Part shown: positions 6,265-64,000 of the stretch, one piece after another
Position numbering within the stretch: position 1 is the first letter of the stretch
Layout of the letters: each line of letters starts with the position of its first letter
Origin: Cognatilysobacter tabacisoli
GTDB taxonomy: Bacteria > Pseudomonadota > Gammaproteobacteria > Xanthomonadales > Xanthomonadaceae
Length of the DNA stretch: 64,000 bases
Direction: 5' to 3'
NCBI RefSeq assembly: GCF_003586305.1
Contig: NZ_QXJI01000001.1
Span: 868,001-932,000, forward strand
Notes under the pieces: generated by a model
What the model saw: the letters and a program-made list of their open reading frames with translations, nothing else
Told to the model about the DNA's origin: nothing
Database searches by the model: none
Translations under genes and position numbers: made by a program

Positions 6265-7299
6265 ATGAATCACGATGTCCTGCGCTTCCCCGCGGAGTGG
6301 GAGCCCCAGTCCGCGGTCCTGATTGCGTGGCCGCATGCCGACACCGACTGGGCCGAGCGCCTCGGTGAGGTCGAAGACACCTACATCGCCCTGGTCGGGG
6401 CGATCACCCGGCTCGAACCGGTCCTGATCTGCGTTGCGGACGACGACGTCGAGGCCTACGCCCGCGCGCGCCTGTCGTCCGCGCGTGTCGACATGGGCCG
6501 GGTCACCTTCGTCCCGCTCGCCTACGACGACACCTGGCTGCGCGACTCCGGCCCGATCACCCTGCGCCAGGGTGCGTCCTTCCGCCTGCTCGATTTCCGC
6601 TTCACCGGCTGGGGCGGCAAGTTCGACGCGAGCCTCGACGACCGCCTCGTCGAGGGGCTCGACGGATTGAACCTGTTTGCAAATAGTGTGCGGCAAAGCA
6701 TTGATTTTGCTTTGGAAGGCGGCGCCATCGAAACCGACGGCGCCGGCACGCTGCTGACCACGTGGCAGTGCCTGCATGAGCGCCATCCCCAGCTGTCCCG
6801 CGACGAGCTGACCGCCAAACTGTCGGGCTGGCTCAAGCAGGACCGCGTGCTGTGGCTGGATCACGGCTACCTCGAGGGCGACGACACCGACGCCCACGTC
6901 GACACGCTCGCCCGGTTCGCGGGCCCGGACGCCATCACCTTCCAGTCGTGCGACGACCCGGACGATTCGCACCATGCCGAGCTGCAGGCAATGGCCGACG
7001 AGATCGCGGCGCTGCGCACCGCGGACGGGCAGCCCTACCGGCTGTTCCCGCTGCCGTGGCCCCAGCCCATCGTCGACGAGGGGCGCCGGCTCGCGGCCAG
7101 CTACGCCAACTTCCTGATCGTCAACGGCGCGGTCTTGATGCCGGCCTATGGCGACCCCGCCGATGCGCGCGCTCAGGCGGTCCTTGCCGAGGCCTTCCCC
7201 GACCGCGAAGTCGTCGCGGTGCCGTGCCGGTCACTGATCTGGCAGAACGGCAGCCTCCACTGCATCACGATGCAGCTGCCCGCGGGCCTCGTCGCCTGA
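6265..7299 (+). CDS. aguA: agmatine deiminase
   Basis: Hydrolyses agmatine to N-carbamoylputrescine and ammonia, the first step of the arginine-decarboxylase route to putrescine. 344 residues, the family size. It has the guanidino-group-modifying fold with the substrate loop DDTWLRDSGP (about 92-101), the catalytic histidine in DTDAHVDTL (His211) and the catalytic cysteine in GSLHCITM (Cys333). The next gene encodes the following enzyme of the pathway, which supports agmatine rather than peptidyl-arginine as substrate. Confidence 0.95.
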   Translation: MNHDVLRFPAEWEPQSAVLIAWPHADTDWAERLGEVEDTYIALVGAITRLEPVLICVADDDVEAYARARLSSARVDMGRVTFVPLAYDDTWLRDSGPITLRQGASFRLLDFRFTGWGGKFDASLDDRLVEGLDGLNLFANSVRQSIDFALEGGAIETDGAGTLLTTWQCLHERHPQLSRDELTAKLSGWLKQDRVLWLDHGYLEGDDTDAHVDTLARFAGPDAITFQSCDDPDDSHHAELQAMADEIAALRTADGQPYRLFPLPWPQPIVDEGRRLAASYANFLIVNGAVLMPAYGDPADARAQAVLAEAFPDREVVAVPCRSLIWQNGSLHCITMQLPAGLVA

Positions 7300-7463
7300 G
7301 CGCAGCTCCAGGCCTCGCCGGGACGCCCACGTCGGCAGGACGTCAACTGTGGAATCCGCCCGCGCGGTGACCGGATGTTCGCGCGCCACACCTAGAATAT
7401 GGGCGGTCGATCTTCGCCCGTCGCGGCCATGTGCCGCCTCGCTTCCCCGTGCCCGGATGCCCC

Positions 7464-8354
7464 ATGCCCAACCAGACCACCCTGCCCGTCGCGCTGATCC
7501 AGGAATGCAACCACGGTGACGCCGACGCCAACCTCGCGGTGATCGAGCAGCGCGTCGCCGAGGCCGCCAAGCGCGGCGCGCGGCTGGTGCTGCTGCAGGA
7601 GCTGCACAACGGCGCGTACTTCTGCCAGCACGAGTCAGTGGACGAGTTCGATCGCGCCGAAACGATCCCGGGGCCGAGCACCGAGCGCCTCGGCCAGCTC
7701 GCGCGCCAGCACGGCGTCGTGCTGGTGAGCTCCCTGTTCGAGAAGCGCGCCACCGGCCTGTACCACAACACTGCGGTGGTGTTCGACAAGGACGGTTCGA
7801 CCGCGGGCAAGTACCGCAAGATGCACATCCCGGACGATCCGGGCTTCTACGAGAAGTTCTACTTCACTCCCGGCGACCTGGGCTTCGAACCGATCCAGAC
7901 CTCGGTCGGACGGCTCGGCCTGATGGTGTGCTGGGACCAGTGGTACCCCGAGGGCGCGCGGCTGATGGCGCTGGCCGGCGCGGACCTGCTGCTGTACCCG
8001 ACCGCGATCGGCTGGGACCCGGACGACGCGCAGGACGAGAAAGTCCGCCAGCGCGGAGCGTGGATCCTCAGCCACCGCGGCCATGCCGTCGCAAACGGCC
8101 TACCGGTGCTGAGCTGCAACCGCGTCGGGCACGAGGCCTCGCCGCTGGGCACGTCGGGCATCCGCTTCTGGGGCTCGAGCCACGTGCTCGGCCCGCAGGG
8201 CGAGTTCCTCGCCGAAGCCGGCACCGACGAGCCGGAGATCCTGATGGCCGAGGTCGACATGCAGCGCAGCGAACACGTGCGCCGCATCTGGCCGTTCCTG
8301 CGCGACCGCCGCATCGACGCCTACGCCGACCTGCTCAAGCGCTACCGTGACTGA
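7464..8354 (+). CDS. aguB: N-carbamoylputrescine amidase
   Basis: Nitrilase-superfamily amidase that converts N-carbamoylputrescine to putrescine, CO2 and ammonia. 296 residues from ATG 7464, which gives the conserved start TLPVALIQ; an upstream in-frame start at 7431 adds 11 residues. The Glu-Lys-Cys triad is visible: Glu46 (LLQELHNG), Lys119 (YRKMHIPDD) and Cys156 (MVCWDQWYPE). The last eight bases overlap the downstream acetyltransferase gene. A 164-bp gap follows aguA and contains a possible TAGAAT -10 element near 7393, so it may have its own promoter. Confidence 0.95.
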   Translation: MPNQTTLPVALIQECNHGDADANLAVIEQRVAEAAKRGARLVLLQELHNGAYFCQHESVDEFDRAETIPGPSTERLGQLARQHGVVLVSSLFEKRATGLYHNTAVVFDKDGSTAGKYRKMHIPDDPGFYEKFYFTPGDLGFEPIQTSVGRLGLMVCWDQWYPEGARLMALAGADLLLYPTAIGWDPDDAQDEKVRQRGAWILSHRGHAVANGLPVLSCNRVGHEASPLGTSGIRFWGSSHVLGPQGEFLAEAGTDEPEILMAEVDMQRSEHVRRIWPFLRDRRIDAYADLLKRYRD

Positions 8355-8892
8355 CGCGCCGCGGTCGCCGGTGATCGTCCGTGCCGCCGGCGTGGACGAC
8401 CTGCCGGCGATCACCGCGCTGTACGCACGCGAGGTCGCCGAAGGCGTCGCCACGTACGAAACCCAGGCGCCCGATGCGACCACCATGGCGGAGCGCTGGC
8501 GCGCGATCACGGCGCAGGGCTACCCCTACCTGGTGGCCGAGCTCGATGGACGGCTCGCCGGGTACGCCTATGCGAGCAGCTACCGCACGCGCGCCGGCTA
8601 TCGTTGGACCGTCGAGGACACGGTTTATGTCGATGCCGGGTGCACCGGACGTGGCGTCGGCCGGGCGCTGCTGGAGGCGTTGATCCGGGCCTGCGAAGCG
8701 CTCGGCTACCGGCAGATGATCGCGGTCGTCGGCGACCGGCATAACGCCGCGTCGATCGCATTGCATAAGCGCCACGGGTTCCACATCGTCGGCACCTTCG
8801 AGGGGATCGGCTGGAAGCACGGTCGATGGCTCGATGGCGTGCAGATGCAGCGCGCCCTGGGTGATGGCGCCGCGTCAGAGCCGACGGCCTAA
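8347..8892 (+). CDS. GNAT N-acetyltransferase, phosphinothricin-acetyltransferase-like
   Basis: 181 residues starting at GTG 8347, which overlaps the end of aguB by eight bases, so translation is likely coupled. Acetyl-CoA-binding motif A is visible as VYVDAGCTGRGVGRALLEAL (about 94-113), preceded by the VATYET and VEDTVYVD elements and followed by NAASIALHKRHGFHIVGTFEGIGWKHGRWLDGV, which is characteristic of the PAT/MddA/ArsN subgroup acting on glutamate-like amino groups. Known relatives acetylate phosphinothricin, methionine sulfoximine or arsenical mimics. The overlap with aguB raises the possibility that the real substrate is a polyamine or related amine; this is inference. Confidence 0.85.
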   Translation: MTDAPRSPVIVRAAGVDDLPAITALYAREVAEGVATYETQAPDATTMAERWRAITAQGYPYLVAELDGRLAGYAYASSYRTRAGYRWTVEDTVYVDAGCTGRGVGRALLEALIRACEALGYRQMIAVVGDRHNAASIALHKRHGFHIVGTFEGIGWKHGRWLDGVQMQRALGDGAASEPTA

Positions 8893-50575: not shown

Positions 50576-51586
50576 TCAGGCGCCGTAGTAGTCGCGGTAC
50601 CAGCGGACGAAGTTGGCGACGCCCTCTTCGACGTCGACCACCGGCCGGTAGCCGACCGCGGCCACCAGGCCGGAGACGTCGGCCTCGGTGTCGGGCACGT
50701 CGCCGGCCTGCAGCGGCAGCATCTCCATCGTCGCCTTGCGTCCCAGGCACTGCTCGAGCACCTCGATGTAGCGCAGCAGCTCGACAGGATGCTCGTTGCC
50801 GATGTTGTAGATGCGGTACGGCGCCACGCCGCTGCTGGCCGGGTCCGGCGCGTCGCCGCGCCACGCGGGGTCGACGCCGGGCACGGTGTCGAGGGTGCGG
50901 ATCACGCCTTCGACGATGTCGTCGACGTAGGTGAAGCTGCGCTTGTGGCGACCGTGGTTGAACACCCGGATCGGCTGGCCGTCGAGGATCGCCTTGGTGA
51001 ACAGGAACAGCGCCATGTCCGGCCGCCCCCACGGGCCGTAGACGGTGAAGAACCGCAGGCCGGTGCTCGGGATGCCGTAGAGGTGGGCGTAGCTGTGCGC
51101 CATGGCCTCGTTGGCCTTCTTGGTCGCCGCGTACAGCGTCAGCGGATGGTCGGTGCCCTGGTGCTCGGAGAACGGCATCGCCGTGTCGGCGCCGTAGACC
51201 GAACTGGTCGACGCGAACACGAGGTGCTCGACGCCGTGGTGGCGGCAGCCCTCGAGCACGTGCAGGAAGCCGGTGACGTTGCTGGCCACGTAGACGTGCG
51301 GGTTCTGCGCGGCGTAGCGCACGCCCGCCTGCGCGGCCAGGTGCACCACGCGCTGCGGCCGATGCTCGGCGAACACCGCCTCGACCGCGGCGCGATCGGC
51401 GAGATCGGCCGTGACGTGGGTGTAGCCGGGGTGGTCGGCGAACCGCGCCAGCCGCGCCTGCTTCAGCGTCACGTCGTAGTAGTCGTTGAGGCTGTCGAAG
51501 CCGACCACCTCGTCGCCGCGCGCCAGCAGGCGCAGCGCGACGTGGGAGCCGATGAAGCCGGCGGTGCCGGTAACGAGGATCTTCAC
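50576..51586 (-). CDS. UDP-glucuronate 4-epimerase
   Basis: Extended-SDR sugar-nucleotide epimerase supplying UDP-galacturonate. 336 residues. NAD motif GTAGFIGS (7-14), the [18 protein letters not shown] stretch typical of the GalAE/LpsL group, STSSVYG, catalytic YAATK (Tyr near 152) and [15 protein letters not shown]. The start is GTG 51586 and, unusually, the preceding nine bases but one are all C, with no Shine-Dalgarno sequence. It follows the dehydrogenase gene by 21 bp and would use its product if that were UDP-glucuronate. Confidence 0.92.
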
Positions 51587-51587
51587 T

Positions 51588-51596
51588 GGGGGGGGG
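51588..51596 (-). repeat. nine-base C homopolymer in front of the epimerase start
   Basis: Nine consecutive G on the plus strand (C on the coding strand), one base from the GTG start codon of the UDP-glucuronate epimerase and at the place where a ribosome binding site should be. Confidence 0.95.
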
Positions 51597-51607
51597 CGTC
51601 CGGGGTC

Positions 51608-52885
<1,278 letters not shown>

Positions 52886-52983
52886 CTCTTGCTCCAGGGT
52901 GGTGTGCAGGGCCGTGCCGCCGGAGGGCGACGCGGCGACGTTTCGGGTCGAGCCAGGCGCACGGTCCGCGCGGGCGGACCGGC

Positions 52984-54150
52984 TCAGGATAGTGCGGCGG
53001 CGCGCTCGTGGGCGGCGCGCGGCGGGCGCCGGCGCTCGGCTCCGCTCCAGCGGAACGGCACGGCGGGTTCCCGCCGGTCCAGGAACGGGCCCGCGTAGCC
53101 GAGCGGGTTCATCGACTGCCAGCGCCACGCGTCGCGGCACATCGCGTCGACGTCCAGCTCCGCGCGCCAGCCGAACACCGCCTCCGCAAGGCTCGGGTCG
53201 GCATAGACCACGGCGACGTCCTGGGCGCGACGCGGAACGACTTCGTACGGGATGTCGCGACCGGACGCCTCGCCGAACGCCCGCACCATCTCCAGCACGC
53301 TGACGCCGCGGCCGGTGCCGAGGTTGACCGTGACGCTGCGGTCGGCGGCGACCAGGTAGTCGATCGCGTCGGCATGCGCGCGCGCCAGGTCCATGACGTG
53401 CAGGTAGTCGCGCACGCCGGTGCCGTCCGGCGTCGGGTAGTCGTTGCCGAACACGCGCAGCCGTTCGCGCCGCCCGGTCGCCACCTGGCTGACGAACGGC
53501 ATCAGGTTGTTGGGCGTGCCGGCCGGGTCCTCGCCGATCAGGCCGGAGGGGTGCGCGCCGACCGGGTTGAAGTAGCGCAGGTTGGCGACGCGGAACTCCG
53601 GGTCGCACGCGCACAGGTCGCCGAGCAGCTGCTCGACCACCAGCTTGGTGCGACCGTACGGGTTGGTCACGCCGAGCGCCGCAGACTCGTCGACCGGGAG
53701 CCGCTCGGGGCTGCCGTACACCGTGGCCGAGGAGCTGAACACCAGCCGGCGCACGCCGGCGGCCTGCATCGCCTGCAGCAGCGTGATCGTGCCGGCGATG
53801 TTGTTGTCGAAGTACTCGAGCGGCCGTTCGCACGATTCGCCCACGGCCTTCAGCGCGGCGAAGTGGATCACCGCGTCGAATCGCTCCGACTGGAACAGCG
53901 CCGCCAGCCCGGCGCGGTCCCGGATGTCGAGGCAGCGCAGGTCGATCGGCGCGCGGGTCAGCTCTTCGAGCCGGTCGATCACCGCGGCCGACGCGTTGCA
54001 CAGGTTGTCGACGATCACCAGGCGGTGGCCGCGCTCGGCGAGCACGACGCAGGTGTGGCTGCCGATGTAGCCGGCCCCGCCGCAGACCAGGATCGACAGC
54101 GGCGCTGGCGCACGCGGCCGGCTCGGCGGCGCGCGGAACTGCGTTGGCAT
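52984..54150 (-). CDS. galE: UDP-glucose 4-epimerase
   Basis: Interconverts UDP-glucose and UDP-galactose. 388 residues from ATG 54150. A short Pro/Arg-rich lead (1-17) precedes the NAD motif [20 protein letters not shown] (22-41); then [19 protein letters not shown], catalytic YGRTK (Tyr near 160), [19 protein letters not shown] and [13 protein letters not shown], all GalE signatures. The C-terminal 40 residues ([18 protein letters not shown] and beyond) extend past the family end and are Arg-rich. Divergent from the export genes. Confidence 0.93.
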
Positions 54151-54278: not shown

Positions 54279-54911
54279 ATGCGATTGATGCAACGAATCT
54301 GCGTGCTGGGCGCCGCGACGATGCTGGCGGCCTGCGCGGCACTCGGCGGCAACAGCGGCTCGATGATCACCGAGGCGCCGCCGCCGGAAACGCGCGCGGC
54401 CGTCAACGCGTACCAGATCGGCGTCGACGACGTCGTCCAGGTCAGCGTGTGGCGCAACCCGGACCTGAGCATCACCGTGCCGGTGCGCCCCGACGGGATG
54501 ATCTCGGTGCCGCTGGTCGGCGACGTGCGCGCCGGCGGCCGCACACCCGAAGAGGTCGCCAAGGACATCCAGGACAAGCTCGGCGCGTACGTGCGCGACC
54601 CGCAGGTCGCGGTGATCCTCAACGACCTGCGCAGCCACGAGTACCTGTCGCGCGTGCGCGTGACGGGCGCGGTGCGCCAGCCGATCTCGATCCCGCACCG
54701 CCAGGGCATGACCGTGCTCGACGCGGTGCTCGCCGCCGGCGGCATCACCGAGTTCGCCGCGCCGGCCCGCTCGGGCCTGTACCGCAAGGACGCCGAGGGC
54801 ACCCGCACCTACCAGGTGCGGCTGGACAAGATCCTCGACAGCGGCGAGCTGTCGACCAACTACGAGGTCGCCCCCGGCGACGTCATCACCGTTCCGGAAC
54901 GCGTGCTGTGA
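54279..54911 (+). CDS. polysaccharide export outer-membrane lipoprotein (Wza/GumB type)
   Basis: Channel for exopolysaccharide export. 210 residues from ATG 54279 (ribosome binding site GGGAGAGGA); GTG 54255 is unlikely. Lipobox LAAC (Cys19). A poly-export domain YQIGVDDVVQVSVWRNPDLSITVPVRPDGMISVPLVGDV (about 46-84) is followed by an SLBB domain (VRVTGAVRQPISI, then AGGITEF). This short form lacks the extra domains of E. coli Wza and resembles the export proteins of XrtA-associated and Gum-like systems. The stop overlaps the next start (GTGA). Confidence 0.93.
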   Translation: MRLMQRICVLGAATMLAACAALGGNSGSMITEAPPPETRAAVNAYQIGVDDVVQVSVWRNPDLSITVPVRPDGMISVPLVGDVRAGGRTPEEVAKDIQDKLGAYVRDPQVAVILNDLRSHEYLSRVRVTGAVRQPISIPHRQGMTVLDAVLAAGGITEFAAPARSGLYRKDAEGTRTYQVRLDKILDSGELSTNYEVAPGDVITVPERVL

Positions 54912-56473
54912 GCCTTCCCCTGAAATGGCAGGGGGCCGAAGAGGCCTCCCCGATCACCCAGATCCTCCCGATCGCATTCGAGGAGTCCAAGCGCCGGACC
55001 CTCGTGCTGGTCACGATCTTCGCCGTCATCGCCCTGCTCGCGCTGGCGATCGGCCTGCTGCTGCCGCAGAAGTTCACCTCGCGCACGACGATCTTCGTCG
55101 AGAACAGCAACATCATCGGCCCGCTGATGGAAGGCCGCGCGGTGCCGACCTCGGTCAGCAACCGCGCCGCGATCACCCGCGAGGTCGCCTTCAGCACCCG
55201 CGTGATGCAGGAGATCCTCAAGGCCGGCGGCTGGGACGAGGCCAACCTCAACCCCGTGCAGCGCGCGCGGCTGGTCGAGGACGTGACCTCGCGCACGCAG
55301 ATCACGACCCCGCGCGAGAACCTGATCCAGATCACCTACTCCGATTCGGACCCGCGCCGGGCCTACCGGGTGACCAAGCGCTTCGCAGACATGGTCATCA
55401 GCGAAAGCCTGGCGACCAAGGAGCGCGAGAGCCAGGAGGCGTTCCGCTTCATCGATTCGCAGGTGCGCCAGTACCACACCAAGCTGACCGACGCGGAGAA
55501 CAAGCTCGAGGCGTATCGCAAGTCCAACCCGGACGCCCGTGCTGGGGTGGAGACCGACGTCAACGCCCGCATCGGCGAACTGCGCCGCCAGGTCGAGACC
55601 TCGCGCATGGAGCTGGGCGATTTCCAGTCGCAGGAGCAGGCGCTGCAGGCGCAGCTGACCGACGAGAACCAGGTGGTGCGCGTGCAAACCCGGACCGGCC
55701 AGCTGCTGGCCCGGCTGGCCGAGCTCGAGGCCGAGCGCGAGCGGCTGCTGATGTCGTTCACCGAACTGCACCCGGACGTGGTGCGCACCCAGCACCAGAT
55801 CGCCGACCTGCAGGACGACCTGCGCCGCGAGGACACGCTGGCGCAGACGCGCGCGCCGAGCGCCGGCTCGCTCGGCACCGACGCCTCGCTGAACCCGCTG
55901 TACGGCCAGCTGCGCAGCCGGCTGGCGGAAGTGCGCAGCAGCGCCGCCGCCACCCGCGCGCGCATCGCCGCCGGCGAGTCGCTGCTGGCGCAGGAGCTGG
56001 CCCGCAGCCGCGGCATCGCGTCGTCGGAGAGCCAGGTGGCCGAACTGACCCGCGACTACGAGGTCAACCGCGACCTCTACCAGGACCTGCTGCGCCGCCG
56101 CGAGAACGCCCGCGTATCGATGAACCTCGACGCCGAGGCGCGCGGCCTGAGCTTCCGCATCGAAGAGCCGGCGTCGGTGCCGGTCCAGGCCAGCGGCCTG
56201 CGCCTGCTGCACGTGGCCGGTGGCGGCCTCGGCCTGGCGGTGCTGGCGCCGATCGCCCTGCTCGGCGCGTTCGTCAAGCTCGACCCGCGCGTGCGCTCGC
56301 CCAAGGCCTTCGACGGCAAGCCGAACCTGCCGCTGCTGACGGTCGTTCCCGCGTACGTGACCCGCAAGGACCGGCAGGTGCAGGTGGGCCGCTGGATGCT
56401 CAGCGCCGGCATGGTCGCGGGCGTGTTCGCGATCTACGGCACCCTCTACCTGCTCAAGCTGGCCAACGCATGA
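54908..56473 (+). CDS. polysaccharide chain-length determinant (Wzz/Wzc N-terminal type)
   Basis: Inner-membrane polysaccharide co-polymerase. 521 residues from GTG 54908, overlapping the preceding stop. First span about 30-52, periplasmic region with long coiled coils (about 160-300: AENKLEAYRKS, ETDVNARIGELRRQVETSRMELGDFQSQEQ; and 320-420), second span about 430-455, and an extra C-terminal span (about 496-516). The segment SFTELHPDVVRTQHQIADL is a family hallmark. The kinase domain is a separate protein, the next gene. The length and order recall the chain-length proteins of XrtA/PEP-CTERM exopolysaccharide loci. Confidence 0.92.
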   Translation: MSLPLKWQGAEEASPITQILPIAFEESKRRTLVLVTIFAVIALLALAIGLLLPQKFTSRTTIFVENSNIIGPLMEGRAVPTSVSNRAAITREVAFSTRVMQEILKAGGWDEANLNPVQRARLVEDVTSRTQITTPRENLIQITYSDSDPRRAYRVTKRFADMVISESLATKERESQEAFRFIDSQVRQYHTKLTDAENKLEAYRKSNPDARAGVETDVNARIGELRRQVETSRMELGDFQSQEQALQAQLTDENQVVRVQTRTGQLLARLAELEAERERLLMSFTELHPDVVRTQHQIADLQDDLRREDTLAQTRAPSAGSLGTDASLNPLYGQLRSRLAEVRSSAAATRARIAAGESLLAQELARSRGIASSESQVAELTRDYEVNRDLYQDLLRRRENARVSMNLDAEARGLSFRIEEPASVPVQASGLRLLHVAGGGLGLAVLAPIALLGAFVKLDPRVRSPKAFDGKPNLPLLTVVPAYVTRKDRQVQVGRWMLSAGMVAGVFAIYGTLYLLKLANA

Positions 56474-57240
56474 CCAAGATCGCCAAAGTCACCGGCGCGG
56501 TGCACGAGATCGACGGCGACGCCTCGCACGGGGTCGTCCGCCGCACCGACGGGCCGCGCGCGCTGTCGCGCATCAACGAACCCAACCCGATGCCGACCGC
56601 CAAGCTCGAGGAGCGGCGGATCATCCACCGCAACGAGTCCGTGCGCGAGCAGGCCAACGCGTTCCGCGAGCTGCGCACCTGCCTGCTCGCACTCGGCGCC
56701 GGCACCAACTTCATCACCCTGGTCGTGCCCGTCGCCGACGGCTGCGGCGGGAGCTTCGTCGCGCGCAACCTGGCCGCGGCGTTCGCGTTCGACGACACCA
56801 AATCGGCGCTGCTGGTCGACTGCGACGTGCGCCAGCCGTCGCAGCACGAGGCGTTCGGCATCGAGGCCAACCAGGGCGGGCTGATCGACTACCTGCGCGA
56901 CGACGCGATCGACGTGCCGAGCATCCTGTACCGCACCGGCGTGCCGGGCCTGCAGCTGATCCCGGCCGGCGAACAGCGCGAGGTCACCGGCGAGGTGTTT
57001 TCGTCGCAGCGCATGCGCTCGATGGTGAAGGCCCTGCACGACCGCTACCCGGACCGCTACCTGATCCTCGACGGCCCCTCGGTGCTGGGCTCGCCCGACG
57101 CGCGGATCCTCGCGGAACTGGCCGACCTGGTCGTGCTGGTGACCGGCTATGGCCAGGTCACGATGGACGCGGTCGACAAGGCGGTCGCGAACTTCGACCC
57201 CTCGAAACTGGCCGGCGTCGTGCTCAACAAGCGTCCGTGA
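56470..57240 (+). CDS. BY-kinase-like protein lacking the P-loop lysine
   Basis: 256 residues from ATG 56470, overlapping the preceding stop (ATGA). Resembles CpsD/Wzc-type tyrosine autokinases: SVREQANAFRELRTCLLAL (57-75), Walker A' ALLVDCDVRQP (113-123), Walker B YLILDGPSVLGSPDARILA (197-215). The Walker A motif is degenerate: where BY-kinases have GxGKS/T, it reads ADGCGGSF (89-96), with Gly in place of the ATP-binding lysine. The usual C-terminal tyrosine cluster is also missing (the last Tyr is 227, and the protein ends LAGVVLNKRP). It may be a pseudokinase that still partners the chain-length protein. Confidence 0.88.
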   Translation: MTKIAKVTGAVHEIDGDASHGVVRRTDGPRALSRINEPNPMPTAKLEERRIIHRNESVREQANAFRELRTCLLALGAGTNFITLVVPVADGCGGSFVARNLAAAFAFDDTKSALLVDCDVRQPSQHEAFGIEANQGGLIDYLRDDAIDVPSILYRTGVPGLQLIPAGEQREVTGEVFSSQRMRSMVKALHDRYPDRYLILDGPSVLGSPDARILAELADLVVLVTGYGQVTMDAVDKAVANFDPSKLAGVVLNKRP

Positions 57241-57265
57241 CTGGACCGACCCAGGGGAAAGGACG

Positions 57266-58567
57266 ATGACCAGGGGACGCAAACGCAGCGCCACGCTCGC
57301 CGTCGCGGTGATGGCGCTGGGCGCCGGCAGCGCGCACGCCGCCCGGTTCGATTACACGGTCGACCTGGGCATCGAGCGCAACGACAACCTCAACCTCAGC
57401 CCCACCGACCCGATCGAGGAAACGATCTACCGGCCGGCGGTCGGCTTCTCGCTGACCGAGGACAGTGACACGCTGCACGCCAACGTCGCCGGGCGCATCG
57501 AATACCGCCATTACGCCGACGGCACCTACGACAGCGGCATCGACGGCACCCTGGCCGGCATCGTCGAGTGGGAGGCGATTCCCGAGCGCCTGACCTTCAC
57601 CGCCGAGGACACGGTCTCGCTGGAGCCGATCGACACGTTCGAGGTCGACAGCCCGGACAACCGCCAGCAGGTGAACGTGTTCTCGATCGGGCCGACGCTG
57701 AATTTCCGCATCGGCGCGGCGCTCGACGGCCAGGTCGAGCTGCGCTTCGTCGACACGAACGCCGAGGTCACCGACGAGTTCAACTCCAGCCGCGTCGACC
57801 TCGCGCTGCGCACCATCCGCCGGCTCGACGCGACCAGCCAGGTGACGCTGAACCTGCGCGGGCAGTCGGTCGACTTCGACGACGAGGTCACCGGCCGCAA
57901 CTACCGTCGCGTCGACCTGTTCGGCAGCTACGCCAAGCGCCTGCACCGGTTCGAGCTGGGCGCGGACGTCGGCTTCTCGCGCATCGACTACACCGACGGC
58001 AACGACGCGCGCTCCGAACCGCTGCTGCGCGGCGAGGTGGCGTGGATTCCCAGCGACAGCCACCGCTTCAACCTGGCGCTGTCCAAGCAGTTCTCCGACG
58101 CGGCCACCGATGCGATGGCGCGGTTGAGCGACGGCATCGCCGCGCCCGGCAGCATCCTGACCGGCGACACGGTCATCAACGCCTCGCCATACGAGGAGCG
58201 CCGCGCGCAGCTGGACTACACGTTCACCTCGACGGTGTTCACCACGTCGGTGGAGACCTACGCCGACGAACTCGACTACGTCGACAGCGACGAGTTCGAC
58301 CAGGAGGGCGTCGGCGGGCGCGCCACGCTGCTGTGGGTCATCAACGAGCGCACCACGGCCGGCGCGTTCGCCGGCGTCGACAAGATCACGTACACCCAGA
58401 TCGACCGCGAGGACGAAGTGCGCCGCTACGGCGTGAGCCTCGGCCGCACCTTCACGCCGCACTGGTCGGCGCGGCTGGAGTTCTCGCGCTACGAGCGCCG
58501 CACCACCGCGCTGGACGGCGACGCGGATCAGAACACCGTGTTTTTCGTCTTCCGCTACACCCGCTGA
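57266..58567 (+). CDS. outer-membrane beta-barrel protein of the exopolysaccharide operon
   Basis: 433 residues with a signal peptide (1-25, cut near AHA-AR) and then almost entirely alternating amphipathic strands, ending with an aromatic-rich final strand NTVFFVFRYTR, the outer-membrane insertion signal. The start FDYTVDLGIERNDNLNLSP is typical of the EpsL-like / PEP-CTERM-system outer-membrane family found behind export, chain-length and kinase genes. It may guide the polymer through the outer membrane or anchor the export complex. ATG 57266 has the ribosome binding site AGGGGAAAGG. Confidence 0.85.
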   Translation: MTRGRKRSATLAVAVMALGAGSAHAARFDYTVDLGIERNDNLNLSPTDPIEETIYRPAVGFSLTEDSDTLHANVAGRIEYRHYADGTYDSGIDGTLAGIVEWEAIPERLTFTAEDTVSLEPIDTFEVDSPDNRQQVNVFSIGPTLNFRIGAALDGQVELRFVDTNAEVTDEFNSSRVDLALRTIRRLDATSQVTLNLRGQSVDFDDEVTGRNYRRVDLFGSYAKRLHRFELGADVGFSRIDYTDGNDARSEPLLRGEVAWIPSDSHRFNLALSKQFSDAATDAMARLSDGIAAPGSILTGDTVINASPYEERRAQLDYTFTSTVFTTSVETYADELDYVDSDEFDQEGVGGRATLLWVINERTTAGAFAGVDKITYTQIDREDEVRRYGVSLGRTFTPHWSARLEFSRYERRTTALDGDADQNTVFFVFRYTR

Positions 58568-58577
58568 GGAACCCGCG

Positions 58578-60422
58578 ATGACCCGCACGCCTGCCGCCCG
58601 CCCCCGCCGCGCCGCCGGCCCCGGGCGCTGGGAATGCGCCTTCCTGCTGTGCACCGTCTCGCTCTCGGCGTCGTGCGGCTACCCGGAAACGTCGACGGCG
58701 CCTGCGCCGACGGCGACGGTCGACGTGCCCGCGCCGAGCGAACAGGCGGCCGAGCCCAGCGGGGACCCGGCCAAGGCCGGCATCCCGATGGACCTGTCCT
58801 ACGTCGACCGCAAGTCCGACGGCTACGCGCGGTTCCGCAGCTGGGTCGACCGCGCAGCCGCCGGCCAGCCGGGCTACGCGTTCGCCGCCAGCGACGCGGC
58901 GCTGATGTACCGGCTCGATCCGAAGCAGAAGTACTGCGACCTGGCGGTGCGCATGGTCGAGGAGCAGGTCAGCACGGCCGAGGGCGTGATCGCCGGCGGC
59001 GGTCGGCCGGCGGTCTCCGGCGATTCCTACCTTGAGGTCGGCCCTTACATCTCCGACTTGGCGATGACGCTCGACACCTGCGGCAAGGACCTGTCGCCCG
59101 AGCAGCGCAAGCGCTGGGGCGCGTATGCCGAGCAGGCGGTCTGGAACGTCTGGCACCACCCGCGCGCATCGTGGGGCGGCCGCCCGCACCCGTGGACCGG
59201 CTGGGCCACCGACAACCCGGGCAACAACTACTACTACAGCTTCCTCGAGGCGACGATGTACTGGGGCCTCGCGAGCGGCAGCCAGACATGGCTCGACGTG
59301 CTGCGCCAGGACAAGCTGCCGCCACTGACGAAGTACTTCGCCGCCCTGCCCGGCGGCGGCAGCCGCGAAGGCACCGGCTACGGCGCCGCGTACATGCGCC
59401 TGTTCCCGCTCTATCGCCTGTGGCGCGACGCGACCGGCACCGACCTGGCCAACGCCAACCCGCACGTCCGGGACTCGATCCGCTACTGGGTGCACGCCAC
59501 CGTGCCGACGCTCGACCGCTTCGCGCCGATCGGCGACCAGTCGCGCAACTCGGTGCCCGAGCTGTTCGACTACCACCGCCGGCTGGTGCTGGAGGCGCGC
59601 TACCTGACGCCGGATCCCGCGGCCAAGGCGGTGGCGTCGTGGTGGCTGGAGAACATCTCGGTGCCGCAGATGACCCAGGGCTTCAACAGCCGCTACGACC
59701 TGCTGCCCACCGGCGACGGCGGCGCCCCGCCGACCGAGCTGCACTACCACTCGCCCGGCACCGGGCACCTGTTCGCGCGCAGCGACTGGGGCAAGGACGC
59801 GATGTGGCTGTCGTTCGTCGCCGGGCCATACGACGAGAGCCACGCGCACCAGGACCAGGGCTCGTTCACGCTGTTCGCGCGCGACTGGCTCGCCGTGACC
59901 GAGAACATCTGGAGCCGCAGCGGCATCAACCAGGCGCCGCAGGTCCACAACGTCGTGCGGTTCGAGCGCGCCGACGGCGACGACAGCCAGTGCCAGGCGC
60001 CACGCGGCGACGTCGTCGTGCACCAGTGCACCGAAACCGTGTCGACGATGTCGGTCACCCCCGGCGCCGCGGGCGCACTGGCCGCGACCGCGGACCTCAC
60101 GCCGGCCTACCGCGGCAATTCCGCCGTGCGGCGGTGGGAGCGCCGCCTCGATTTCGCCGGCCGCAAGCTGACCGTCCGCGACGCGTTCGAGCTCGGCGCC
60201 GGGACCCGCGCCGTGTTCCAGCTCAACGTCCCGACGGAGCCCCAGGTCAGCGGCAACGAGGTCATCTCCGGCCGACTGCGGGTCCGGGTGCTGGAGCCCG
60301 CCAACGCCACGATCCGGGTCCACGACTGGCGCGGACAGGACGCGTCCGAGTTCCAGCGGGGCTGGCGAATCGATGTTTCGGGCGGAAATGCGGGCTATCT
60401 GGTGGAACTGGACGAAAAATAG
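58578..60422 (+). CDS. heparinase II/III-like polysaccharide lyase, first copy
   Basis: 614 residues. The N-terminus has a hydrophobic signal ending LSASC (Cys33), possibly a lipoprotein, then a Pro/Ala linker. An alpha/alpha-toroid domain (about 70-390) carries WTGWATDNPGNNYYYSF, GGGSREGTGYGAAYMRLF and PELFDYHRR, followed by a beta-sandwich domain with ESHAHQDQGSFTLFARDWL (about 415-435), the metal/His region of heparinase II/III-type lyases. It is expected to cleave an acidic polysaccharide by beta-elimination in the envelope. It follows the barrel gene by 10 bp, so it is part of the export operon. The true substrate is probably the polymer made here. Confidence 0.8.
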   Translation: MTRTPAARPRRAAGPGRWECAFLLCTVSLSASCGYPETSTAPAPTATVDVPAPSEQAAEPSGDPAKAGIPMDLSYVDRKSDGYARFRSWVDRAAAGQPGYAFAASDAALMYRLDPKQKYCDLAVRMVEEQVSTAEGVIAGGGRPAVSGDSYLEVGPYISDLAMTLDTCGKDLSPEQRKRWGAYAEQAVWNVWHHPRASWGGRPHPWTGWATDNPGNNYYYSFLEATMYWGLASGSQTWLDVLRQDKLPPLTKYFAALPGGGSREGTGYGAAYMRLFPLYRLWRDATGTDLANANPHVRDSIRYWVHATVPTLDRFAPIGDQSRNSVPELFDYHRRLVLEARYLTPDPAAKAVASWWLENISVPQMTQGFNSRYDLLPTGDGGAPPTELHYHSPGTGHLFARSDWGKDAMWLSFVAGPYDESHAHQDQGSFTLFARDWLAVTENIWSRSGINQAPQVHNVVRFERADGDDSQCQAPRGDVVVHQCTETVSTMSVTPGAAGALAATADLTPAYRGNSAVRRWERRLDFAGRKLTVRDAFELGAGTRAVFQLNVPTEPQVSGNEVISGRLRVRVLEPANATIRVHDWRGQDASEFQRGWRIDVSGGNAGYLVELDEK

Positions 60423-60491
60423 GGTCATTCTCGCGGCACCCCGGTCTATCCCCCACCCGGCGGTCCGGTCTCCGGGCCCCAGGAGACCCCG

Positions 60492-62480
60492 ATGCCAGCA
60501 CCCGTTTTGCGTCGTTCCGCGCGCGCGGCCGCCCTCCCGTTCGGCCTGATGCTCCTCACCCTCGCCGCGCTGGCCAGCGCCGGCATGGTCCGACTCCCTG
60601 GATTCGCCCCGGCCGAGCGCTGGCTGCCGCAGCGCTCGCCGCTTGCGGTAGGTGTCCCGTCAGCGTGGGCGTCGACCCCCGCCGCGACCCGTGACGCCGC
60701 CCCCGGCACCACCGGCACAGGCTGGCTGGATCGCTGGATTCCCAATCGCCTCGCGGCCAAGTGGCGCAGCGCCGAGGCCCGCGCGGGACGCGGCTCCACC
60801 GGTTCAGCGCCTCCGGCGCCCGCGGTCCCGCCGACTCCCCCGGCGGCGCCCGCGCCGGAGCCGACGTCCCGCCCGCAGCTGGCCGGCATCCTGCTGGACG
60901 TCAGCTATGTCGACCGTGGCTCCACCGCGTTCACCCGGTTCAAGACCTCCGTCGACAACGCCGTCGCCGGTCGCCCGACCTACGGCTTCGAGGCCACCGA
61001 CGCGGCGATGATGTACCTCCTGTCCGGCGGCCTGCAGTACTGCGACCTCGCCGTGCGGATGGTCGAGCAGCAGGTCGCCGACGCCGAAGCACGGATCGCG
61101 TCGGGGCAGAACCCGGCGGTGGCCGGCGACTCCTACCTGGAGGTCGGCGACAAAATCTCCGACCTGGCGCTGACGCTCGACGTCTGCGCGTTCCGCACCA
61201 CCGCCACCCAGCAGCAGCGTTGGCTCGCGTACGCCGAGCAGGCGGTGTGGAACGTCTGGAACCCGAGCCAGGCGCGCTGGGGCAACCGATCGGCCCCGTG
61301 GTCGGGCTGGTCTATCAACAACCCGGGCAACAACTACCACTACAGCTTCCTGACCGCGACGGCGTACCTGGGCCTGACCTTCGGCCGCAACCCGACCTGG
61401 CTCAACTACCTCGACGCGCAGAAGTGGCCTCCGCTGCGGTCGTACTACGCGGGCCTGCCCGGAGGTGGCAGCCGCGAGGGCACCGGCTACGGCACCGCGC
61501 AGATGCGCCTGTTCACCCTCTACCGGGTGTGGCGCGATGCGACCGGCGTCGACCTCGGCAACGCCAGCTCGCACCTGACCGACACGATCCACTACTGGAC
61601 CCACGCGACGGTGCCGACGCTGAACCGCTTCGCCCCGTTCGGCGACCAGTCGCGCAACTCCAACCCCGAGCTGTTCGACTACCACCGGCGGCTGATGCTC
61701 GAGGCGCGCGCGATCACCACCGACGCGCGGGCGAAGGAAATCGCCTCGTGGTGGCTCAACAACATCTCGGTCCGTCAGATGTCGTCGGCGTTCAACTTCC
61801 GCCACGACCTGCTGCCGGCCGGCACCGGCGGCACGCCGCCGACCGACCTGACCTACCACGCGACCGGCACCGGCCATCTGTTTTCGCGCACCGGCTGGGA
61901 CACCGCGGCGATGTGGGTGGCCTTCACCGCCGGCCCGTACGTCGAAAGCCACGCCCACCAGGACCAGGGTTCGTTCACGCTGTTCGCCGGCGACTGGCTG
62001 GCGGTCACGTCGAACATCTGGAGCGCGAGCGGCATCGAGCAGTCGACCGACATGCACAACTTGGTGCGCTTCGAACGCAGCGGCTCGATCGTGCCGCAGC
62101 GCGAGGGCACGACGTCGTCGATGACGGTGACCCGCGGCGCCGGCGGCGCGTTCACCGCGAACGCGAACCTCACCCCGGCCTACGGCACCAGCAGCCCGCC
62201 GGTCAGTTCGTGGACGCGGCAGCTGCAGTTCGGCAACCGCCGGCTGACGGTCACCGACAGCTTCGCGCTGAACTCGGGCGTGACCGCGATCCACCAGACC
62301 CATTCGCCGACCGCCCCGACCGTCAACGCCGCGGCGCGCGAGGTGACCACGCAGCGGATGCGGATGCGGGTGCTGTCGCCGGCGAACGCGACGATCTCGT
62401 CGGTCTCTGTGCAGGGCCGCTACCGGATCGAGGTGCGCGGCGGCACCACCGGCTATCAGGTCGAGTACAGCGAGCTCTGA
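60492..62480 (+). CDS. heparinase II/III-like polysaccharide lyase, second copy
   Basis: 662 residues, a tandem paralogue of the preceding gene: the same blocks recur in order (DVSYVDRGS, CDLAVRMVEQQV, GDSYLEVG, WSINNPGNNYHYSF, GGGSREGTGYGTAQMRLF, ESHAHQDQGSFTLFAGDWL). It differs at the N-terminus, which has an uncleaved-looking span (about 11-32) and a longer Pro/Ala-rich stalk (to about 130), suggesting anchoring in the inner membrane. By eye well over half of the residues in the catalytic region match. The 69-bp gap contains no promoter I can identify. Together the pair could trim or release the nascent polymer. Confidence 0.8.
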   Translation: MPAPVLRRSARAAALPFGLMLLTLAALASAGMVRLPGFAPAERWLPQRSPLAVGVPSAWASTPAATRDAAPGTTGTGWLDRWIPNRLAAKWRSAEARAGRGSTGSAPPAPAVPPTPPAAPAPEPTSRPQLAGILLDVSYVDRGSTAFTRFKTSVDNAVAGRPTYGFEATDAAMMYLLSGGLQYCDLAVRMVEQQVADAEARIASGQNPAVAGDSYLEVGDKISDLALTLDVCAFRTTATQQQRWLAYAEQAVWNVWNPSQARWGNRSAPWSGWSINNPGNNYHYSFLTATAYLGLTFGRNPTWLNYLDAQKWPPLRSYYAGLPGGGSREGTGYGTAQMRLFTLYRVWRDATGVDLGNASSHLTDTIHYWTHATVPTLNRFAPFGDQSRNSNPELFDYHRRLMLEARAITTDARAKEIASWWLNNISVRQMSSAFNFRHDLLPAGTGGTPPTDLTYHATGTGHLFSRTGWDTAAMWVAFTAGPYVESHAHQDQGSFTLFAGDWLAVTSNIWSASGIEQSTDMHNLVRFERSGSIVPQREGTTSSMTVTRGAGGAFTANANLTPAYGTSSPPVSSWTRQLQFGNRRLTVTDSFALNSGVTAIHQTHSPTAPTVNAAAREVTTQRMRMRVLSPANATISSVSVQGRYRIEVRGGTTGYQVEYSEL

Positions 62481-62516: not shown

Positions 62517-63305
62517 CTACTGGCGCTTGGCCAGCGCGTTGCCGGCGTACTGGGTGAAGTACCAGGCCGCGAGCGGCCACGACAGGCCCTCGACGTTGCG
62601 GTAGATGTGCCACTGCCAGCGCGCCGCCTTCAGCTTGTCGGACGACAGCGAGCCGCTGCGCACGAGGTACCACGCCAGCGGCTCGTCGCTGGCGCACAGG
62701 GCGCGGCCGGCGCGGCGGACGAGGTCCAGCCAGAACACGTAGTCCTCGTGGCCGACGCGCTGGAAGCGCGCCTCGCCGAGCGAGCGGTCGTACAGGCCGG
62801 TCAGGTTGCCGATGCGGTTGCTGCGCAGCATGGCCGCGTGGTCGACCGACGCTGGAGGACGCACCGTCGACAGCACGTGGCCGGACTCGTCGACGCGCTG
62901 GTACGCGGCGTAGCTGATCATCCCGCCGGTCTCCCGCAGGTGCGCGAGCTGGATGGCGACCTTGCGCGGGTGCCACCAGTCGTCGCTGTCGCAGAACGCC
63001 ACGTGGGTGCCGGTTGCCGCCTCGATCCCGGCGTTGCGCGCGGCGGCGACGCCGCCGTTGCGCGGCTGGCGGATTACGACCACGCGCGGGTCGAGCGCGG
63101 CATAGCACTCGGCGATCGCGACGGAGTCGTCGCGCGAGCCGTCGTCGACGGCGAGCAGCTCGACGTCCTCGTGGCTCTGCGCGAGCACCGACTCGATCGA
63201 GCGGCGCATCGTCGCCGCGGCGTTGTAGACCGGCATCACCACGCTGACGCGCTCGCTGCCGGGGCGACCGTGCCGCGGAACGAACGCGTCGGACATGCGG
63301 TTCAT
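62517..63305 (-). CDS. family 2 glycosyltransferase
   Basis: 262 residues from ATG 63305, overlapping the stop of the upstream gene (ATGA). The GT-A fold begins VSVVMPVYNAAATMRRSIESVLAQS (20-44), with VDDGSRDDS (about 55-63) and the metal-binding CDSDDWW (near 104). The acceptor side contains GHEDYVFWLDLVRRAG, where ED is the usual catalytic base. No membrane span, so it is a soluble or peripheral enzyme that adds one sugar to the lipid-linked repeat. ATG 63296 is an alternative start. Confidence 0.92.
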   Translation of the reverse strand: MNRMSDAFVPRHGRPGSERVSVVMPVYNAAATMRRSIESVLAQSHEDVELLAVDDGSRDDSVAIAECYAALDPRVVVIRQPRNGGVAAARNAGIEAATGTHVAFCDSDDWWHPRKVAIQLAHLRETGGMISYAAYQRVDESGHVLSTVRPPASVDHAAMLRSNRIGNLTGLYDRSLGEARFQRVGHEDYVFWLDLVRRAGRALCASDEPLAWYLVRSGSLSSDKLKAARWQWHIYRNVEGLSWPLAAWYFTQYAGNALAKRQ

Positions 63306-64000
63306 GCCCGCCCCCCGGCCCAGGACGCCCGCGGCGGCGGCAGCACGTAGTCGCGGTACTGCGACGGATCGCCGTCGAGCCCGGCCTCGGCGGCCTTGAT
63401 GATGTTGTAGACCTCGCGCGAGGTGACGTAGTGCAGCACGTGCCGCTGGCCGTCGTTGTACGCACGCTCGAGGTAGTCGTGCATGGCGTCGACCTGCGGG
63501 CCGAGCAGCGTGTCCATGTCCGTTTCCTGGGTGCCGTGCGTGTGGATCTTCACGAACACCCACTCCGGCCGCCCCTCGACGTGCACGCCCGCCCGCACCC
63601 AGCTGTCGACGCGGCTCGGCGTCGGCGGGCAACTGCGGCGAATATCGGAGTTCTCGATCCGCGGGACCAGGCCGAACTTGCGGTTGCGCCAGTCCAGCGC
63701 CAGCGGCCCCTGCACGATCATCAGGTCGCCGCTTGCGCGTCCCCCGGTGCGGACCGGCTCGCCGCGATCGTGCGACTTGGCGCGCTGCGGGTCGTCGGTG
63801 GCGTAGTAGATCGAGTTGATCGTCGCGGTCTGGGTGTCGCTCGGCGCCGACGGCAGGGTGAAGTCGGCGTAGCAGCCCAGTTCGCGCAGCAGCACCAGCT
63901 CGTTGTTCAAGCCGCACCAGCGGCCGTCCGGCCGCGAGTTGTCCAGGCACCAGTTGCCGTGGATGAAGCCGAACTGCAGCTCGCCGCTGGCCGGGTGCCG
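63302..64000 (-). CDS. conserved protein of exopolysaccharide loci (5' end beyond window)
   Basis: The frame is open from the window edge for 232 codons and ends at 63302, so the N-terminus is missing. Visible motifs: GFIHGNWCLDNSRPDGRWCG, then NNELVLLRELGCYADFTLPSAPS and NSIYYATDDP (first about 75 visible codons), and KIHTHGT (about 150 visible codons in). I recall this pattern from uncharacterised proteins in glycosyltransferase clusters, sometimes labelled polysaccharide-deacetylase-like because of the His-rich segments. A hydrolase or deacetylase role is possible but not shown. It is coupled by overlap to the GT2 gene. Confidence 0.75.
   Translation of the reverse strand, partial: RHPASGELQFGFIHGNWCLDNSRPDGRWCGLNNELVLLRELGCYADFTLPSAPSDTQTATINSIYYATDDPQRAKSHDRGEPVRTGGRASGDLMIVQGPLALDWRNRKFGLVPRIENSDIRRSCPPTPSRVDSWVRAGVHVEGRPEWVFVKIHTHGTQETDMDTLLGPQVDAMHDYLERAYNDGQRHVLHYVTSREVYNIIKAAEAGLDGDPSQYRDYVLPPPRASWAGGRA

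Follow-up and report, generated by a model that had tools for sequence, protein, structure and literature searches.

Tandem heparinase II/III-like lyases encoded in a putative exopolysaccharide export operon of Cognatilysobacter tabacisoli

The window examined here, a stretch of 64,000 nucleotides of C. tabacisoli DNA, contains an export operon (54279-62480) whose six genes lie on one strand (+). All six were found at the positions listed below, together with the genes that flank them.

50576..51586, minus strand: NAD-dependent sugar-nucleotide epimerase (PF01370; best PDB relatives 5u4q and 6zl6)
51608..52888, minus strand: UDP-N-acetylglucosamine 6-dehydrogenase, TviB type (NF011729 TviB, 639 bits versus a cut-off of 592)
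52984..54150, minus strand: UDP-glucose 4-epimerase GalE, divergent from the operon (TIGR01179, 423 bits versus a cut-off of 262)
54279..54911, plus strand: Wza-like export protein, XrtA-system type (TIGR03027, 201 bits versus a cut-off of 180; PF02563; SLBB)
54908..56473, plus strand: chain-length determinant (Wzz/Wzc membrane part), XrtA-system type (TIGR03007, 320 bits versus a cut-off of 279)
56470..57240, plus strand: BY-kinase-like protein (TIGR03018, 185 bits, under the cut-off of 231; aligned to E. coli Wzc)
57266..58567, plus strand: outer-membrane beta-barrel protein (TIGR03016, 45.9 bits, under the cut-off of 90.9; position conserved)
58578..60422, plus strand: lyase 1, heparinase II/III-like (PF07940, 21.8 bits, under the cut-off of 24; alignment)
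60492..62480, plus strand: lyase 2, heparinase II/III-like (PF07940, 22.5 bits versus 24; AF2 model, fold search and PL33 profile alignment)
62517..63314, minus strand: family 2 glycosyltransferase at the end of a convergent assembly operon (PF00535)
63302..64000, minus strand: conserved 394-residue protein, with its C-terminal 232 residues in the window and the rest beyond it (no family match)

The gene set and spacings given in the original prediction are as it described them. The Wza and chain-length genes overlap by 4 bp, as do the chain-length and kinase-like genes, and these are followed by gaps of 25 bp (kinase-like gene to barrel), 10 bp (barrel to lyase 1) and 69 bp (lyase 1 to lyase 2). 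A promoter/terminator scan returned no promoter-like sites and no terminator-like sites within the operon; its single terminator-like site lies on the minus strand upstream of the operon, fewer than the 2.9 sites that shuffled sequences lead one to expect in the scan. The lack of an internal terminator-like site weakly suggests that the operon is expressed as a single transcript.

Export and initiation genes of the XrtA type are recognized by models TIGR03027, TIGR03007 and TIGR03013, each over its curated cut-off, and the kinase-like, barrel and Wzy proteins and one glycosyltransferase match XrtA-system models below cut-off. The same locus holds a Wzx/Wzy pathway set: a flippase (PF01943) and a polymerase (PF04932), both scoring over cut-off, together with Wza, the chain-length determinant and the initiating glycosyltransferase (TIGR03013), which is encoded ~18 kb further on. 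Exosortase XrtA (TIGR03109) was found in none of the seven lyase-bearing genomes searched, which include that of the window and of which five have a completeness of 90% or more and a contamination of 5% or less. Membership in an XrtA system was therefore rejected. XrtA/PEP-CTERM loci have the Wza, chain-length and initiating glycosyltransferase genes in common with the locus described here, but in this case XrtA was not found in the seven genomes and tandem lyases end the operon. Judged by these profile matches, this is a predicted XrtA-type Wzx/Wzy exopolysaccharide locus without XrtA.

The Wzc protein of the original prediction is present in its chain-length and kinase-like parts, but these are divided between a membrane protein and a separate, degenerate kinase. 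Walker A of the kinase-like protein is degenerate (GCGGS) and lacks its lysine. Across the 20 distinct loci displayed, the motif is always G-[CS]-G-G-S; a pattern scan did not locate it in locus L051. In the 24 rows shown, the C-terminal 25 residues of the protein contain no tyrosine. Both BY-kinase features, the Walker-A lysine and the C-terminal tyrosine cluster, are missing, and a 'Wzc' acting as a single active kinase was rejected given the degenerate motif in relatives.

Evidence on the nature of the polymer comes from the dehydrogenase gene at 51608-52888, whose product has a UDP-HexNAc-type dehydrogenase as its closest PDB relative. A UDP-glucose dehydrogenase was ruled out for this gene by the TviB profile. 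Because this adjacent enzyme exceeds the TviB cut-off, an N-acetylhexosaminuronate is the probable acidic sugar, which supports and sharpens the earlier proposal of an acidic polymer of the uronic-acid type. Of 24 cluster loci, 11 have a TviB-type gene next to the operon; for the other 13, none is within the stretch covered. The neighbouring epimerase (50576..51586) we take to be probably of the UDP-uronate 4-epimerase type, a naming made without a curated cut-off. The passing of the TviB model recalls the Vi antigen pathway, but the epimerase falls under the TviC cut-off (97 versus 760 bits), and the present locus carries Wzx- and Wzy-type genes.

Neither lyase passes a curated family cut-off in Pfam or NCBIfam. 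Their PF07940 scores are just below the gathering score, and two NCBIfam heparin-lyase models match lyase 2 at 15 bits, far under cut-off, with none matching lyase 1. The profile search named in the original prediction as a check on both proteins thus stops short of an assignment, but the fold search with lyase 2 supports it. In the AF2 model of this protein, which has its core at ~130-662, 392 of 662 residues reach a pLDDT of at least 90. A Foldseek search with the model yielded 51 matches at E <=0.001, headed by heparinase II/III-fold lyases, and the fold is an (alpha/alpha)6 toroid plus an antiparallel beta-sheet domain, as in PL12, PL15, PL17, PL21, PL33, PL35 and PL39. VIA-align Z scores are 28.9 for 4MMH (HepC, PL12), 27.9 for GAGase II (PL35), 27.1 for GAGase VII, 22.1 for PL33, 21.9 for Atu3025 (PL15) and 21.8 for a PL17 enzyme, at 7-16% identity in the structural alignments listed. 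The model covers lyase 2, and the fold of lyase 1 is assigned through its 59% identity to lyase 2; locus L051 falls outside the model's alignment. The toroid-domain profile on its own retrieved no lyase from the PDB, giving one chance match (E 1.7).

The candidate catalytic residues were located by comparison with PL33 (BtPL33HA, BT4410) and PL35 (GAGase II and VII). Profile alignment places H487 of lyase 2 on H444 of PL33 (a 34.4-bit segment) and, in a separate segment of only 2.8 bits, Y333 on PL33 Y291, with positions counted from printed chain numbers. N281 was placed from spacing and motif rather than from residue-level alignment; it lies 52 residues before the tyrosine, compared with 53 in PL33 and 54 in PL35. 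The resulting series of 281/333/487/489/491 parallels N238/Y291/H444 of PL33 and N191-N192/Y246/H401/H403/D405 of PL35. Residues N280, N281, Y333 and H487 do not vary among the homologues (39 of 39). Both paralogues in the window keep these and also the residues at 489 and 491; the candidate triads are N217/Y268/H422 (lyase 1) and N281/Y333/H487 (lyase 2).

Lyase 2 resembles PL33 in fold (Z ~22) and in the Tyr291 and His444 positions, the tyrosine through a weak segment, but identity is 13-16% and Tyr470 is not conserved: many homologues carry His there, lyase 1 of the window Arg and lyase 2 Ala. HA, heparosan, chondroitin and gellan are the substrates of the PL33 enzymes that have been studied. 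PL35 is alike in fold, in the Asn-Asn pair and in an H-x-H-x-D motif at nearly the same distance from the tyrosine, but identity is 14-15%. H489 and D491 fit the PL35 metal ligands H403 and D405 by position, but vary: H489 is Ala in two lyase 1 copies (L040 and L044) and in L037, a solitary homologue, and 11 lyase 1 copies of the alignment have Glu in place of D491. Ligands D421 and H457 are unplaced. Through the modelled lyase 2 fold and the catalytic residues, the lyase identity given in the original prediction is supported, and both proteins are predicted to be lyase-type members of the heparinase II/III clan. The pair is possibly an unnamed PL family.

N-termini were judged by a loose lipobox pattern and by eye. 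Lyase 1 of the window carries a lipoprotein-like signal (LSASC). Among first lyases with a readable start, 21 of 21 have a Cys behind the hydrophobic stretch, as does L052 when inspected by eye; the lyase 1 of L017 has an unreadable start and lies outside this count. The corresponding number for second lyases is 0 of 20. In 12 of 21 copies the lyase 1 Cys is preceded by Gly, Ala or Ser, and in the other 9 by His or Gln. These atypical lipoboxes, and a Ser at -3 of the Cys in the window, make the Cys a firmer finding than the lipid anchor. Lyase 1 is probably lipid-anchored. In lyase 2 of the window, the hydrophobic stretch ends A-L-A-S-A and is followed by a low-confidence linker. Across lyase 2 copies the stretch mostly ends A-x-A-like, by eye, and the linker spans 59-155 residues (n=17 measured). 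The N-termini of lyase 2 from L028, L035 and L041 were read separately from translated frames; for L035, the chosen start falls after the likely signal, and the upstream frame lacks a Cys where the hydrophobic stretch ends. From these patterns lyase 2 is probably soluble with its signal cleaved, an uncleaved anchor being possible. The paralogues thus differ at their N-termini as had been predicted, but the contrast is between a Cys-containing signal and an A-x-A stretch with a linker, not between a short signal and a span plus stalk.

Comparison with related genomes bears out the expectation that the cluster order would be conserved. The order of the operon recurs in 19 of 35 loci (18 from a locus scan plus the window, added by hand from its gene coordinates), which is more than chance; L047, L048, L050 and L053, whose contigs match those of L025, L041, L030 and L026 in length, were taken as duplicates of these and are outside the 35. 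The tandem pair sits directly behind the same barrel in all 19 loci with the pair and upstream sequence, whereas L017 begins inside lyase 1 and is silent on this point. In 11 of 35 loci, some of them on short contigs, a homologue occurs without an export gene in the stretch covered, so clan members are not confined to export loci. Lyase 1 rows (n=20) form one clade (95/93) and lyase 2 rows (n=18) another (80/85), the row L041_2 being partly out of frame because its gene is split over frames. Genome G106 (L052) has lyase 1 only, which indicates that lyase 2 is dispensable there. Some copies are broken. Culturable relatives that carry the locus include Pseudoxanthomonas sp. Root630 and Lysobacter sp. 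Root494. No published report of the cluster was found among the titles and abstract starts listed, and we do not claim the cluster as unpublished.

The 394-residue protein at the edge of the window, searched at full length, has zero Pfam or NCBIfam matches and a poor AF2 model (mean pLDDT of 53.0), and is 73-79% identical in 18 other rows representing 15 distinct loci. A close copy (at least 76%) is held by 12 of 119 family genomes, all 12 of which have a lyase. In four family genomes whose copy is 56-60% identical, the search gave no lyase match at E 1e-20.

From the computed gene order, lyase 2 fold, conserved residues, clades, unlike N-termini and sugar-nucleotide genes, we infer the activity, substrate, lipid anchor, location and purpose of the cut. 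We favour, with some confidence, the hypothesis that the two heparinase II/III-clan polysaccharide lyases act on the cell's own exopolysaccharide at export, where they would shorten, release or clear it. The locus would make an acidic polymer, probably containing N-acetylhexosaminuronate, by a Wzx/Wzy route, with Wza, the chain-length determinant and the barrel as its export path. Lyase 1, with its probable lipid anchor, would likely reside at the outer membrane, close to Wza and the barrel, and lyase 2, with a cleavable signal and a flexible linker, in the periplasm or outside. Both would act by beta-elimination, with Tyr as acid/base, His as its partner and Asn as neutraliser, and cutting may shorten, release or clear the polymer as it is exported. 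That relatives keep both lyases with different export signals points to polymer cutting as an integral export step at two places.

The purpose of such a cut could lie outside normal chain trimming. AlgL is a lyase of own-strain alginate, and AlgL-type clearing is known; the WelR gene lies within the gum gene cluster. In the available text of two papers, WelR breaks down the welan gum of its own strain and is treated, as a lyase of an own acidic polymer, alongside the biosynthesis genes (PMC7899989, PMC9197254), and in that of the former it does so upon glucose depletion (PMC7899989). Our paralogues differ in being two, side by side in an export operon, with unlike N-termini, and clan kinship with WelR is not implied. 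Following these precedents, and given the plain signal-like N-termini of homologues away from export loci, both enzymes could clear or recycle polymer that is stuck in the periplasm or secreted, as in starvation or dispersal. The placement of the lyase genes right behind the barrel and the retention of the pair with the export operon argue for expression with export; clearing is compatible with this, but we consider it unlikely as the main role. Still less do we expect the lyases to be catabolic enzymes for foreign glycans that lie next to the operon by chance. Many of the fold relatives are catabolic, and the 11 loci without nearby export genes fit this, but the 19 informative tandem loci behind the same barrel and the lyase in all 12 family genomes with a close 394-residue protein make it highly improbable.

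Other explanations concern what the proteins do to the chain. The fold search also matched human DS-epi1 (6hzn; Z 23.2 over 500 aligned residues), which has the fold and core residues in common with lyases, according to the available text of PMC11848413, so one or both paralogues might be polymer-level C5 epimerases that convert uronate during export without cutting. An exopolysaccharide locus is a natural setting for such an enzyme, and a pair could divide cutting and epimerising. The catalytic residues proposed for DS-epi1 in the available text of PMC8006597 are His205, Tyr261 and Tyr473. However, Asn-Asn occupies the presumed equivalent of His205 in all 39 homologues, and the presumed equivalent of Tyr473 is the variable PL33-Tyr470 position (His in many, Arg in lyase 1, Ala in lyase 2), so that we regard epimerisation as quite unlikely. 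One paralogue might instead be active and the other a binding or scaffold protein, as the substitutions of H489 and D491 could imply, but N280, N281, Y333 and H487 are invariant across both clades and we find this very doubtful.

Returning to cutting at export, a bolder proposal, which we rate as rather unlikely, is that the pair forms an unnamed N-acetylhexosaminuronate-specific family that trims at two stations, and that cutting, together with the lysine-less kinase, replaces chain-length control by tyrosine phosphorylation. The lipid-anchored lyase at the outer-membrane exit would then set chain length or release polymer, and the soluble lyase with its flexible linker would clear the periplasm. 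The enzymes may serve as a new tool on aminouronate glycans. The locus touches on the question of why export loci hold enzymes that cut their own polymer, whether for trimming, release or clearing, and natural controls are at hand in paralogues with unlike N-termini, relatives that have both lyases, one relative that has lyase 1 alone and a sister locus that lacks both.

The six genes of the export operon lie on the forward strand as originally predicted, with two overlaps of 4 bp followed by gaps of 25, 10 and 69 bp. In a profile scan, Wza and the chain-length protein score over the cut-offs of TIGR03027 and TIGR03007, and the kinase-like protein and the barrel match TIGR03018 and TIGR03016 below cut-off. 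The features are as follows.

Left of the operon, -: GalE
Left of the operon, within 50576-52888, -: TviB-type dehydrogenase (639 bits versus the TviB cut-off of 592)
Left of the operon, within 50576-52888, -: epimerase, which we take to be a UDP-uronate 4-epimerase
54279-62480, +: export operon
56470-57240, +: kinase-like protein
58578-60422, +: lyase 1
60492-62480, +: lyase 2
63302-64000, -: C-terminal part of the 394-residue protein
Right of the operon, convergent, mostly past the window end: family 2 glycosyltransferase, 394-residue protein without family, NodB-type deacetylase, family 4 glycosyltransferase, 260-residue protein, Wzx, Wzy, second deacetylase

The kinase-like protein can be aligned to E. 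coli Wzc over ~190 residues. Across the 20 distinct loci displayed, its Walker A motif is always G-[CS]-G-G-S, Gly replacing Lys, and the last 25 residues contain no Tyr in any of 24 rows. By these motifs it is a conserved pseudokinase of the exopolysaccharide locus, and because the Walker-A Lys and the Tyr tail are absent, the usual phosphorylation cycle controlling chain length is unlikely to operate here.

The proposed assignment of the tandem proteins to the heparinase II/III-like lyases is supported by fold and catalytic residues, and both match PF07940 just under its cut-off. The models used place the group in no named family; two NCBIfam models for heparin lyases give lyase 2 a score of 15 bits, well short of their cut-offs. 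The paralogues are 59% identical. Modelled by AF2 (mean pLDDT 79.9; residues 29-114 below 50), lyase 2 matches PL35 GAGase II, enzymes of PL33, PL15, PL12, PL21, PL39 and PL17, and human DS-epi1, the family labels being taken from excerpts of PMC11848413 and PMC12088678. The closest solved relatives by profile are PL33 structures (E 2.7e-9, lyase 2). Counted from the printed chain numbers of the profile alignment, PL33 His444 aligns to H487 of lyase 2 in a 34.4-bit segment, and Tyr291 aligns to Y333 in another segment, which scores just 2.8 bits. The same excerpts give N238, Y291 and H444 as the catalytic residues of PL33 (PMC11848413) and, for PL35, N192 with N191, Y246 and H401, with a metal at H403 and D405 (PMC12088678). 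The corresponding residues are N280-N281, Y333, H487, H489 and D491 in lyase 2 and N216-N217, Y268, H422, H424 and D426 in lyase 1, the putative Asn equivalence to PL33 and PL35 resting on spacing: a sequence search with the toroid domain alone found no lyase. Since N280, N281, Y333 and H487 are unchanged in 39 of 39 aligned homologues and the residues are kept in both paralogues, both are probably active. Chemically, the chief alternative is a C5 epimerase like DS-epi1, itself among the fold matches and proposed to use His205, Tyr261 and Tyr473 (PMC8006597); the Asn-Asn of these proteins and the absence of the second Tyr, at positions presumed equivalent, disfavour it relative to a lyase.

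In a tree of 50 rows, first lyases form one clade (20 rows, support 95/93) and second lyases another (18 rows, 80/85, in 72% of bootstrap trees), the latter with moderate support and including one row, L041_2, that is partly out of frame; the other 12 rows are separate (82/83). The N-termini of the paralogues differ, in agreement with the original prediction: all 21 readable first lyases have a Cys behind the hydrophobic stretch, and none of 20 second lyases does. This Cys, a candidate lipid anchor, is preceded by Gly, Ala or Ser in 12 first lyases and by His or Gln in nine, so a canonical lipobox is not established for all. Asp follows it in none of the 21. By the +2 rule of lipoprotein sorting, the predicted destination of lyase 1 is the outer membrane. 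In second lyases, the hydrophobic stretch mostly ends, by eye, in A-x-A-like residues and is followed by a linker, 59-155 residues long in the 17 measured.

The order Wza-Wzc-kinase-barrel-lyase-lyase is conserved in relatives, being found in 19 of 35 loci compared (the window, 30 loci and four further loci). The pair is also present in L017, whose stretch starts within lyase 1, and two stretches (L032, L040) stop just past lyase 1. In L052 the locus includes a single lyase, whose N-terminus is of lyase-1 type, and in L051 a single lyase closes the convergent operon. The remaining 11 loci have a lyase without any export gene in the stretch covered; three of these (L039, L042, L043) come from contigs of 3-10 kb, and L029 distantly matches two sugar genes. 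Within 10 kb behind the lyases, no assembly genes were found in four of the 19 ordered loci (L022, L023, L027, L044). The pair's named hosts belong to Pseudoxanthomonas, Lysobacter and other Lysobacteraceae/Lysobacterales. Among 119 drawn family genomes, 14 carry a lyase at E 1e-20. In 11 it is a tandem pair, of which three (G023, G084, G140) have one member broken up or interrupted by a stop; the other three genomes hold one copy (G014 on a 3.3-kb contig, G106, G137).

The likeliest reading is that the two lyases are self-directed and would cut the cell's own aminouronate polymer at two envelope sites, thereby trimming, releasing or clearing it. Fold, catalytic residues, gene order and N-termini are computational results, from which activity, substrate, lipid anchor, location and purpose are inferred. 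As to purpose, the main rival is clearing or recycling of the polymer. Lyases of a strain's own exopolysaccharide, as proposed here for the pair, are known: according to excerpts of PMC7899989 and PMC9197254, WelR degrades welan gum. New to us are a tandem pair with differing N-termini in a locus that is XrtA-type but lacks a detected XrtA, and lyases that the models used assign to no named family. The cluster is reported in none of the titles and abstract openings among the literature results listed, and the word 'lyase' is absent from PMC1569441.

The gene content is that of an XrtA-type Wzx/Wzy exopolysaccharide locus, and a TIGR03013 initiating transferase over cut-off lies ~18 kb further along. 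XrtA was found in none of seven lyase-bearing genomes searched, the 3.12-Mb genome studied here among them; the window is bases 868001-932000 of its contig 1. Among 24 cluster loci, 11 have the TviB-type gene next to the operon, and in the other 13 it does not lie in the stretch covered. Together with the dehydrogenase and epimerase at 50576-52888, the locus has two deacetylases in the convergent operon; the polymer is possibly a de-N-acetylated, zwitterionic aminouronate. A Gfo/Idh oxidoreductase in locus L003 (11798-12898), whose best NCBIfam match is UDP-GlcNAc 3-dehydrogenase at 106 bits, below the cut-off of 450, could point to a diacetamido-uronate.

The 394-residue protein (63302-64000; L003:1302-2486) has no Pfam or NCBIfam match and a poor AF2 model. 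It is 73-79% identical between clusters, a higher conservation than that of the lyases, and its His/Asp-rich motifs may resemble those of NodB-type deacetylases. It is present in 16 of the 119 family genomes: 12 copies at least 76% identical, every one in a lyase genome, and four at 56-60% identity, every one in a genome without a lyase match (E 1e-20). Two lyase genomes lack it (G014 and G137, 82 and 85% complete). Of the four sister loci with the 56-60% copies, L055 has the export genes with a different gene behind the barrel; comparison with the window's proteins found no export gene within 20 kb in the other three.

One lyase copy is spread over several frames or interrupted by a stop codon at L041:9044-11487, L054:9317-10974 (-) and G084:C23:19890-21737, through possible sequencing error or decay, and in L041 part of the N-terminal region is seemingly repeated. 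In L051 (genome G055, where XrtA was not found), two genes behind the barrel (6995-8633) are alpha/beta hydrolase-like by eye and, we presume, recall exosortase-associated hydrolases. Lone homologues occur in Dokdonella and Lysobacterales (L031, L033, L034, L036, L038) and in MAGs of Acidobacteria (L043) and Myxococcota (L046), where the stretch covered contains no export gene; they are possible catabolic relatives. The lyases of L031 and L034 lie near genes that, judged by eye, resemble efflux and metabolic genes.
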